A DNA stretch of 64,000 nt, from contig JAIQGK010000012.1 of the NCBI GenBank assembly GCA_020072645.1, positions 62,001 to 126,000 of the forward strand, written 5' to 3'. Source of the DNA: Terriglobia bacterium (GTDB lineage Bacteria > Acidobacteriota > Terriglobia > Terriglobales > Acidobacteriaceae). The position numbers and the translations under genes are program-made. Position 1 is the first letter of the stretch, and each line of letters starts with the position of its first letter. Of the stretch, positions 19,249-22,388 are shown piece by piece. The notes beneath the pieces are model-generated. The model saw nothing but the letters and a program-made list of their open reading frames with translations, had not been told where the DNA came from and made no database searches.

Positions 19249-19325
19249 GGCTATTCCAACCTATGTGTGAAGACCGCGGCTCACGTAAAATATGGGGTAA
19301 GAGATTTCTTGTTGAGAGCCGGGGA

Positions 19326-20009
19326 ATGAAATTGCGCCTGAATTGGGTCTTGATCGCGGTGTTTATGCTGGCGTCAAGCGTCGCTGTGTTTGCCGTCGAT
19401 GCCTCGGTGCTTAAGCCGCCTCGCGGAGCTACAGTCGCTATCGTGATGTTTGAAGACATGCAATGCCCGGATTGTTCCAAGGCTTACCCTGCGATCTGGG
19501 AAGCCGCCAACGAGCATAAAATCCCGGTGGTGCTACGTGATTTTCCTTTGCCCATGCACAACTGGGCCTTTGATGCCGCGGTGTGGGCCCGATATTTCGA
19601 CCAGAGATCGCCCAGCACGGGAAATGAGTTCCGTAAGTTTATTTATGCCAACCAGATACAGATCACTCGGGACAATCTGCTGCAGTGGGCGCAAAAATTC
19701 GCGGGCGAGAACAAGACCGCCGTCTCCCAGGAGAAGGATCCCGATGGCAAGCTGGCGGATTTGGTGAAAGCAGATTACTTGCTCGGGCAGCGCATTGGCG
19801 TGGAACATACTCCCACAATCTGGGTTGTAAGTAATAGCGGAGCTTCTGGGCCTTTGGTGGAAGAAGTAAAAGTGCGGGAGAAGCTGGGCCAGATGATTGA
19901 AGACATGCTCAGCAAGGCGCAGCCTGTGACGGCAGCCAAAGTAAATTCCCCGGCCAAGGCCGCAGTCCGCAAGAAAAATATTGTCAAAACCCCTAAGAAG
20001 GCAGGATGA
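19326..20009 (+). CDS. Exported thioredoxin-fold protein with CPDC motif, copy 1
   Basis: A DsbA/DsbG-like periplasmic thiol protein. A signal peptide (about 1-22) is followed by VAIVMFEDMQCPDCSKAYPAIWEAA, where CPDC is the active site, and a long helical insertion. A cis-proline loop is seen in RIGVEHTPTIWVV. The C-terminal tail is rich in Lys, Ala and Pro. It probably handles disulfide chemistry or reductant transfer in the periplasm; the direction is unknown. ATG 19326 is chosen because it begins the signal peptide. It overlaps the next gene by ATGA, implying translational coupling. Confidence 0.83.
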   Translation: MKLRLNWVLIAVFMLASSVAVFAVDASVLKPPRGATVAIVMFEDMQCPDCSKAYPAIWEAANEHKIPVVLRDFPLPMHNWAFDAAVWARYFDQRSPSTGNEFRKFIYANQIQITRDNLLQWAQKFAGENKTAVSQEKDPDGKLADLVKADYLLGQRIGVEHTPTIWVVSNSGASGPLVEEVKVREKLGQMIEDMLSKAQPVTAAKVNSPAKAAVRKKNIVKTPKKAG

Positions 20010-20686
20010 CCAGCAAAATGAATATATTGGCAAAGCGTTTTATTCACATCGCCGGAGCGCTTGCTCTTGCGCTTGCTCCAGCCGCCAGCCGCGCTGCAGA
20101 CGGTTCGTCACTCAAGCCGCCGCCGGGCGCGCGCGCGGCCATTGTAATGTTTGAGGACCTGGAATGTCCTGACTGCGCCCGTGCTTATCCGGTGGTTTGG
20201 GAAGCAGCCAAGAAGCACAACATCCCCGTGGTGTTGCATGACTTCCCGCTTCAACAACATCCCTGGTCTTTTGATGCGGCAGTCTATGCCCGCTACTTTG
20301 ACACCAAATCAGAGAAGCTGGGCGACGATTTCCGGGGCTATATTTTCAAGAATCAAACACAAATTGATAAGTCCAACCTGCGCCAATATGTCGAGAAGTT
20401 TGCTAATGACAACAAGGCGCCGATTCCGTTTGTTCTGGATCCTGATGGACAGTTTAAAGCCAAGATCCTGGCCGACCGCAATATGGGCACGCAAATCGGC
20501 CTGCAACACACCCCAACCATCTTTGTCGTGGGCAGCGGCGGCGCTGCGACTCCCGCCGTTGAGGTTGAAGACCGCAGCAAGTTAGACCAGATCATTGAAG
20601 ACACGCTGCAGAAATCACCCGCTGCATCAGCGGCGAAGAAGCCCGCGGCCAAAAAGACAACCGCAAAGAAGGCTGCGAAGAAATAA
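20006..20686 (+). CDS. Exported thioredoxin-fold protein with CPDC motif, copy 2
   Basis: Paralogue of the preceding gene (SSLKPPPGARAAIVMFEDLECPDCARAYP; LQHTPTIFVV). The start ATG at 20006 overlaps the previous stop (ATGA); ATG 20018 is an alternative and would begin the same signal peptide. The C-terminal end (SAAKKPAAKKTTAKKAAKK) is a repetitive Lys/Ala tail like those of histone-H1-like proteins, odd on a periplasmic thioredoxin and possibly a charged surface anchor. Both copies are followed by a strong terminator and by a peroxiredoxin gene on the opposite strand. Confidence 0.83.
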   Translation: MTSKMNILAKRFIHIAGALALALAPAASRAADGSSLKPPPGARAAIVMFEDLECPDCARAYPVVWEAAKKHNIPVVLHDFPLQQHPWSFDAAVYARYFDTKSEKLGDDFRGYIFKNQTQIDKSNLRQYVEKFANDNKAPIPFVLDPDGQFKAKILADRNMGTQIGLQHTPTIFVVGSGGAATPAVEVEDRSKLDQIIEDTLQKSPAASAAKKPAAKKTTAKKAAKK

Positions 20687-20764: not shown

Positions 20765-21253
20765 CTATTTGACCTTACCCAATTCAGTCACCAGTTCTTC
20801 GTAATCCGGCTCCTGGCCAAGTTCATAGGTCTTGGAAAATGCGATTTTGCCTTGCTTGTCCACAATGAAGATCGCACGGTCATTGATTCCGGGCAGCGGC
20901 TCGCCCAGGCGCAAAATGCCAAACTGCTGGGCCACACCGGCATGAGGCCAATAGTCGCTCAGAAGGGGATACTCAAGCCAGCCAATCGACTTCTCCTGCC
21001 AGGCGAGGTGGCTGTAAATTGAATCCGGGCTGATGCCCACGACCTGGGCATCATGTTCGGCGAACTTTGGCAAATATTTGCCGTACGCCGACATTTCATT
21101 CGTTCAAGTTGGGCTCCAATCCAACGGGTAAAACGCAAGAACCACGTTCTTTTTGCCGCGCAGATCACTGAGCTTGAATTTGTGTCTTTGTTTTCCCGTG
21201 ACCCCGGGAAGCTCAATCTCCGGGGCCATCTCTCCAACTTTCAAAGCCGCCAT
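20765..21253 (-). CDS. Peroxiredoxin with in-frame TGA at the peroxidatic cysteine: probable selenoprotein
   Basis: AhpE/BCP-type thiol peroxidase that would reduce peroxides. Reading from ATG 21253, codons 1-49 give the family N-terminus ([30 protein letters not shown]). Codon 50 (21106-21104) is TGA, then TNEMSAYGK and the rest of the fold continue in the same frame to TAG at 20765. Family members have Cys at this position (PxCT), so TGA most likely encodes selenocysteine. The 162-residue protein has no cysteine at all, so it would be a one-selenocysteine enzyme. A hairpin of SECIS type follows the TGA. A nonsense mutation or sequencing error is the alternative. Automatic calling would give only a 109-residue fragment from ATG 21094, without the active site. 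No selA, selB or selC lies in this window. Confidence 0.75.
21057..21103 (-). promoter_or_regulatory. Candidate bacterial SECIS hairpin after the TGA codon
   Basis: Two mutually exclusive folds lie just after the TGA. Fold A pairs TGTCG (21093-21089) with CGGCA (21083-21079) around a GCGTA loop whose first base is G and is the 16th base after the TGA. This fits the spacing and loop-G rule for bacterial SECIS elements. Fold B pairs TCGGCG (21091-21086) with CGCCGA (21062-21057) and, inside, GGCAA with TTGCC around an ATAT loop. Fold B is more stable by eye but lacks the loop G. Confidence 0.5.
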
Positions 21254-21461
21254 TCATCCCTCCGGGTAAACTTAACCGGGCTTATACTGCAAGCGCCGGA
21301 AACTGCTTGAGAAACCATTCATTTTATCGTGGTCAAATAATTTAAGACAGGGTAGCTTAAAGAAAACGGCAGAAGCGGCCTCGGCATCGAATAGCGTTGG
21401 CCCCTGTTTTGGAGAAGTTGCAGGACATTGCCGGCGAAAGCGCACGCTTATAGGAGTAAAA

Positions 21462-22388
21462 ATGCTGGGTTTGGGTAATTACAATTACGGGCACTTTTCC
21501 CGGGAACTCTTTCATGATCTTGCCCGCAGCTCATTCTCCGGGCCGGGACCGGGAGTGCAGGCGCCTGACTTCAAGGCCACCACCCTTGATGGCGAAACGG
21601 TCCGCTTAAGCGACTACGCCGGGAAAAAGAACGTTTTGCTGGTTTTTGGCTCGGCTACGTGCCCCATGACCGCCGCTTCCATCGGCCAGATCAATGAGCT
21701 TTATGACCGTTTTCGCGGTGATGAGATTGAATTTCTTTTTGTTTATGTGCGTGAAGCTCATCCCGGCGAAGTAATTCCCGCGCATAAATCCATGCGTGAA
21801 AAGATCGAAGCTGCGCGGCTCCTGCGTGACGAAGAAGACATGCACATGCCCATCATTGTGGACGATCTCCGCGGCACCATCCATCGCAAATACTCCAAGC
21901 TGCCCAACCCGGCATTTCTGATCGATAAATCCGGCCGGGTGGCTTTTCTTTCCCTCTGGTCCAAGCCCGCTGGACTCAGCCAGGCCATCCAGGAACTGCT
22001 GGACGCACAGGAAGAACGCGGCGTGCACCAAGCGGTGGTCAATGGCGGCCAGGACCTGGATATGCCCATGCCTTACAGCTCGCTCTATGCATATCGCGCC
22101 CTGGAGCGCGGCGGAAAAGAATCATTGAATGATTTTCGCCATGCCATGGGATTACCAGCTCGCGTGGCCATGACTGCTTCGCATATCGCGCGGCCCTTGC
22201 TGGATAATCCCGGACGCGTGATGTCCATTGCCGCTCTTGCCGCCGCTGTCCTTGCCGGCGGGCTGTATGCGGGTTTTGAATTGCGCAAGCGGCGGCTGGG
22301 CACGCAGCGAAATCCTTATCGCGCCTATGAACGCGATAAAGTGCAAGATACAGAAACGGGCAATGATTACGGGGCAGTCGGAATTTAG
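21462..22388 (+). CDS. Deiodinase-family redoxin with cysteine at the selenocysteine site
   Basis: A thioredoxin-fold redoxin of the iodothyronine-deiodinase-like family found in bacteria. The core (about 32-185) includes VQAPDFKATTLDGETVRLSDY and LLVFGSATCPMT with Cys67. Animal deiodinases have GSCTU at that point, followed by a YxxEAH motif seen here as VYVREAH. PNPAFLIDKSGRVAFL closes the fold. A C-terminal region of about 110 residues ends in a membrane helix (about 255-275) and basic tail, so the enzyme is probably membrane-tethered with the redox domain cytoplasmic. The true substrate is unknown; thyroid-hormone activity should not be assumed. It is divergent from the TGA-containing peroxiredoxin across 208 bp. 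Confidence 0.8.
   Translation: MLGLGNYNYGHFSRELFHDLARSSFSGPGPGVQAPDFKATTLDGETVRLSDYAGKKNVLLVFGSATCPMTAASIGQINELYDRFRGDEIEFLFVYVREAHPGEVIPAHKSMREKIEAARLLRDEEDMHMPIIVDDLRGTIHRKYSKLPNPAFLIDKSGRVAFLSLWSKPAGLSQAIQELLDAQEERGVHQAVVNGGQDLDMPMPYSSLYAYRALERGGKESLNDFRHAMGLPARVAMTASHIARPLLDNPGRVMSIAALAAAVLAGGLYAGFELRKRRLGTQRNPYRAYERDKVQDTETGNDYGAVGI

Follow-up and report, generated by a model that had tools for sequence, protein, structure and literature searches.

A predicted AhpE-like selenocysteine peroxiredoxin in a Terriglobia bacterium

Peroxiredoxins that carry selenocysteine (Sec) in a TxxU motif are, in the accessible text of three earlier studies, an established family, and a 2006 table within the same material credits Acidobacteria with four selenoproteins of three families (PMC1794560, PMC1088965, PMC13188914). 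The known Sec peroxiredoxins of bacteria (TxxU motif, PF00578; PrxU, NF040737) share with the gene described here, which lies in a window of 64,000 nucleotides (the whole stretch of DNA analysed), the TGA/Sec codon at the peroxidatic position, the AhpC-TSA domain, the existence of Cys homologues and the accompanying Sec machinery; unlike them, the window protein has SxxU and no Cys, and against the PrxU model it scores 61.8 bits, the cut-off being 270. Two other groups belong to the same superfamily, but the protein likewise lies below their thresholds: the thiol peroxidase Prx-SUH (NF045827; 41.1 against 298), which the accessible part of PMC13188914 lists as a Sec family, and BCP/PrxQ (NF006960; 54.3 against 140). 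It matches 12 NCBIfam models in all, these three included, and reaches the cut-off of none.

AhpE of Mycobacterium tuberculosis (Rv2238c; 4x0x, 5id2) has segments, SDFWPH and GIANR, that match SDYWPH and GINDR here, and is a 1-Cys peroxiredoxin by the title of entry 1xxu; the window protein likewise has no resolving Cys, but where AhpE has Cys at the catalytic site it has a predicted Sec. An AhpE-type selenoprotein is not named in the accessible portions of PMC1794560, PMC13188914, PMC1088965, PMC5029168 and PMC9312934, most of the subscription literature lying outside this scope, and full-text literature searches, judged by title, gave no survey of bacterial selenoproteins among papers that join selenoproteins, peroxiredoxins and AhpE, and nothing on this set among papers on acidobacterial selenoproteins. 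Such absence is weak evidence of newness; the gene is a further predicted Sec peroxiredoxin, AhpE-like, among selenium peroxiredoxins that are already known.

A peroxiredoxin frame with TGA at the catalytic codon

Translation on the minus strand from ATG 21253, which a GGAGGG precedes by four bases, gives a frame of 162 residues that closes with a TAG ending at 20765 and contains a single internal TGA, at codon 50. With this codon translated as Sec/Cys, residues 6-139 match Pfam AhpC-TSA at 1.5e-32, and codon 50 aligns with the catalytic Cys of M. tuberculosis AhpE; an AhpC-TSA domain is thus combined with a T/SxxU motif, here SPTU, in a protein devoid of Cys. The observation made in the first-pass annotation, a peroxiredoxin frame open except for a TGA replacing the catalytic Cys, is confirmed by frame, Pfam match and AhpE alignment, and the standard-code list of open reading frames bears out its statement that standard-code calling yields only a 109-residue piece from ATG 21094. 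An open frame with one TGA is by itself cheap, since the window holds 79 frames in which one TGA is flanked by open runs of at least 40 codons on one side and 60 on the other; what speaks for a real gene is the match to the family, the catalytic site at which the TGA falls and its recurrence in relatives. Over the 64-kb window, Rfam gave no match at gathering scores and ARAGORN returned none.

The AlphaFold model, built on 25 aligned sequences including the protein's own, has a pLDDT of 95.8. All 50 chains shown in the fold comparison are peroxiredoxins, with AhpE (4x0x, TM 0.88) at rank 7; by sequence score, the 2-Cys BAS1 chain 5zte (2.1e-22) and 2ywn (4e-21) are slightly closer than AhpE (8.7e-21 to 1.5e-20). 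The label AhpE-like is used as a judgement that draws on the shared segments and the absence of an own Cys, not as the result of a tree. The active-site residues Pro43, Ser47, Sec50 and Arg126 are all present, and among the 25 aligned sequences Pro43 is conserved in 21 and Arg126, which we take to be the catalytic Arg of the peroxiredoxin active site, in every one. This complete set speaks against a protein that receives Sec but whose main work is not peroxide reduction, being instead redox sensing or chaperoning, for instance, a role that would suit the adjoining thiol oxidoreductase-like genes and a gene whose peroxidase activity is read from sequence; we regard such a role as improbable and retain peroxide reduction as the predicted function.

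Features of the window, numbered from its first letter
Feature	Position	Strand	Remarks
Second DsbA-like protein, CPDC	19263..20009	+	Neighbour kept in some relatives
DsbA-like protein, CPDC (Thioredoxin_4)	20006..20686	+	Neighbour kept in some relatives
AhpE-like peroxiredoxin gene, predicted selenoprotein	20765..21253	-	162 residues, Sec at 50, stop TAG; frame, Pfam, relatives
Hairpin, putative bacterial SECIS element	21053..21094	-	Loop predicted to lie 26 bases past the TGA; stronger than codon-preserving redraws
TGA codon 50, read as selenocysteine, peroxidatic position	21104..21106	-	Frame and orthologues
GGAGGG, likely ribosome binding site (inferred)	21258..21263	-	Sequence
Deiodinase/AhpC-TSA-like thioredoxin-fold protein, Cys form GSATCP	21462..22388	+	Neighbour kept in some relatives

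Codon 50 and the selenocysteine machinery among relatives

In 118 of 300 genomes searched from the same bacterial family, matches at E <= 1e-25 were obtained, and the family set drawn from the first 93 rows comprises 90 loci, including the window's own, after three end fragments (one with a TGA, two without a stop) were left out. Codon 50 is TGA in 67 of these loci, Cys in 17 (14 TGC, 3 TGT) and Ser in six (5 AGC, 1 AGT). Each of the 67 has exactly one TGA in its matched stretch; among the matches listed, a match contains either one TGA or no stop, the lower rows being stop-free, and none contains a TAA or TAG. A scan of named genomes, queried with an alignment of TGA forms, contributed 80 loci (64 TGA, 14 Cys, 2 Ser), the top-ranking ones among at least 558, a selection and a query that bias the TGA share of this set upward; the two sets overlap, their 170 loci reducing to 162 distinct rows. 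TGA forms occur in Acidobacteriota, Chloroflexota, Bacillota, Nitrospirota, Binatota and other phyla, and the window gene belongs to what appears to be a mostly-Sec branch spanning Acidobacteriota, Chloroflexota, Bacillota and others.

The distribution bears on two explanations that would make the TGA accidental. A sequencing or assembly error for TGT or TGC, each one base away from TGA, was conceivable as long as a single genome was in view; the 66 other family loci with the same TGA, at 46 to 97% identity, and the named strains with the TGA form, Neobacillus and Anaerobacillus among them, make a read error untenable, its probability being practically nil. A pseudogene, that is an ordinary Cys peroxiredoxin struck by a nonsense mutation, with its downstream half dead or surviving as the 109-residue fragment, would agree with a standard-code list in which the fragment alone appears, but conflicts with the recurrence of the TGA in both sets, with the lack of TAA and TAG inside the listed matches and with the pattern of substitutions. 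In an ungapped comparison with seven same-genus relatives, covering 44 codons upstream of the TGA and up to 108 downstream, dN is 0.030-0.157 upstream and 0.008-0.166 downstream, against a dS of 0.25 to saturated, so that dN lies far below dS on both sides and no decay is seen past the TGA. Purifying selection keeps both halves of the peroxiredoxin gene, and a pseudogene is exceedingly improbable. The remark of the first-pass annotation that a TGA falling on the catalytic codon is unlikely to be chance holds across the family set, and its reading of the gene as a selenoprotein is supported by the TGA in orthologues, by selection on both halves and by the machinery.

The source genome (6.4 Mb, judged 99% complete) contains a tRNA-Sec with anticodon TCA (73.9 bits, cut-off 47), SelA (550.5 bits, cut-off 268), SelB (387.9 bits, cut-off 242) and SelD, all above curated cut-offs. 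The SelD gene (L022, on contig C12 near 254514) has an in-frame TGA of its own, within AAGUASKL; SelD proteins are known with either Sec or Cys at this site. Two more peroxiredoxins of the genome (L002 and L003) have TGA at the catalytic place, in TPGUTAEM and TPGUTIEACGF; one of them has a leader-like N-terminus and one is BCP-like. Elsewhere in the genus, one genome (G198) carries two full-length SelA genes, of 541.9 and 540.3 bits.

Across the family, SelA exceeds its cut-off in 151 of 300 genomes (152 at E < 1e-60), and at the latter threshold it is found in 62 of the 64 genomes that hold the 67 TGA loci, against 152 of 300 overall. The remaining two TGA genomes, G120 and G185, have a tRNA-Sec above cut-off; of the five genomes in which this tRNA was sought, G184 also has it; none above the cut-off came up in G107, a Cys-form genome judged 69% complete, or in G094, a TGA-form genome with SelA judged 76% complete. 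Among 14 genomes of the named set tried for SelA, the protein is above cut-off in all ten with the TGA form, which are Bacillota and Anaerolineae, and in two of four with the Cys form. Since 16 of the 17 Cys-form family loci also lie in genomes with SelA, and hence in Sec-capable ones, Sec is not forced on the peroxiredoxin gene. Nor need the absence of a resolving Cys hold throughout the branch, as 47 of the 67 TGA family loci have at least one Cys in the matched stretch, the other 20 having none beside the Sec.

A quick tree of the 162 rows was built with the trait column masked, the root not inferred and AhpE outside it. TGA against all other states requires 12 changes on the best tree (34 by shuffling), of which starred branches force four. 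Several Cys rows are nested inside TGA branches, which, the root not being inferred, would suit loss of Sec. The eight Ser rows form one side of a starred branch labelled 99. In this Ser paralogue (L102, L106, L111-L114, L148, L188) the catalytic Thr is mostly replaced by Glu or Asp, as in LNWEPVS, and all six family genomes in which it was seen also have the TGA form; it is possibly a non-enzymatic partner or regulator.

A hairpin behind the TGA

The 60 bases from codon 50 were folded and compared with codon-preserving redraws, with a control place 180 bases further on. The hairpin of the window was equalled in only 2 of 500 redraws. Among family loci the mean z is -1.54 for TGA forms (49/67 below -1), against -0.20 for Cys forms (5/17 below -1; a first run gave 4/17, and again 49/67 for TGA), -0.20 for Ser forms (2/6) and -0.04 at the control place (12/67). 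The named loci behave alike, with -2.09 for TGA (57/64 below -1), 0.20 for Cys (0/14), 0.32 for Ser (0/2) and -0.26 at the control place (12/64). The hairpin accompanies TGA forms and is absent in Cys forms and further down the gene.

Pair counts, based on a structure chosen from single folds and with Cys forms as control, give 70.8% of positions paired in TGA forms (28-49% when slid) and a covariation of 0.182 against 0.093 after shuffling; in Cys forms 48.4% are paired and covariation is at chance. In TGA forms the number of pairs changed on both sides does not exceed that of shuffles, 52 of 500 of which reach it, and RNAalifold, run on the alignment of all 67 stretches, predicted no common structure. 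When hairpin and TGA state were compared over phylogenetically independent pairs, the four pairs on starred branches were too few for a significant result. The predicted loop of the window gene, AUAU, lacks the G that the SECIS consensus usually has in its small apical loop; a G occurs anywhere in the loop in 53/67 family and 53/64 named TGA loci, and is one of the first two loop bases in 39 and 37, respectively. The accessible text of one study describes SECIS elements of some known selenoproteins that depart from the consensus (PMC9312934). For the two TGA paralogues and SelD, the hairpins are not clearly above redraws (z -1.42, -0.48 and -0.86).

The association of the hairpin with the TGA state, together with the complete Sec set of the genome and the exchange of TGA with Cys across the tree, counts against decoding of the TGA as Trp, Cys or Ser through suppression or a changed code. 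Nothing directly favours such decoding, apart from the existence of the Ser paralogue branch, and we hold it to be very improbable next to Sec insertion.

Predicted mechanism, neighbours and implications

Alongside the codon and its conservation, the machinery, the selection, the fold model and the hairpin signal, Sec insertion, peroxidase activity and the nature of the donor are what we infer, and we are highly confident that the gene encodes an AhpE-like, peroxide-reducing Sec peroxiredoxin whose Sec enters at the UGA through SelB and the hairpin. SelB carrying Sec-tRNA-Sec would bind the hairpin behind the UGA, so that the ribosome would place Sec at residue 50 instead of terminating; Sec50, aided by Pro43, Ser47 and Arg126, would then attack the peroxide. 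Because the protein has no Cys, a thiol or redoxin from elsewhere would have to reduce the resulting selenenic acid; such a one-Sec mechanism, dependent on an external donor, is likely from the composition of the protein. For AhpE the donor is mycothiol/mycoredoxin.

When the neighbours were compared by blast with 109 relative loci, matches spread over several genera turned up for the first DsbA-like protein in 19 loci, for the second in 18 and for the deiodinase-like protein in 16; many of the 109 loci are too short to reveal neighbours, and one DsbA match (L040) is only 29% identical. By eye, the N-termini of the DsbA-like proteins resemble signal peptides, so that these proteins may work outside the cytoplasm; that they partner the peroxiredoxin directly is only a guess. 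A membrane-like stretch, also recognised by eye, lies near the C-terminus of the deiodinase-like protein. Considered as further selenoproteins, the DsbA-like and deiodinase-like neighbours were rejected, since the stretches matched in their relatives contain no TGA.

A wider picture, to which we give even chances, would be an AhpE-like branch ruled by Sec, perhaps originally so, and extending over several phyla, in which Cys came back on several occasions and a Ser paralogue lacking the catalytic groups emerged a single time; with the TGA-containing SelD and the two other TGA peroxiredoxins, it would point to soil acidobacteria that fight peroxide in a selenium-dependent manner. Some genera with strains in this branch are presumably aerobic. 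With its natural sets of TGA, Cys and Ser forms, the branch lends itself to the question of why some lineages retain Sec and others give it up, and its TGA forms in named Bacillaceae strains can be used at the bench. As standard-code calling of such genes yields a fragment without the active site, current counts of both peroxide defence and selenium use in soil Acidobacteriota are probably too low.
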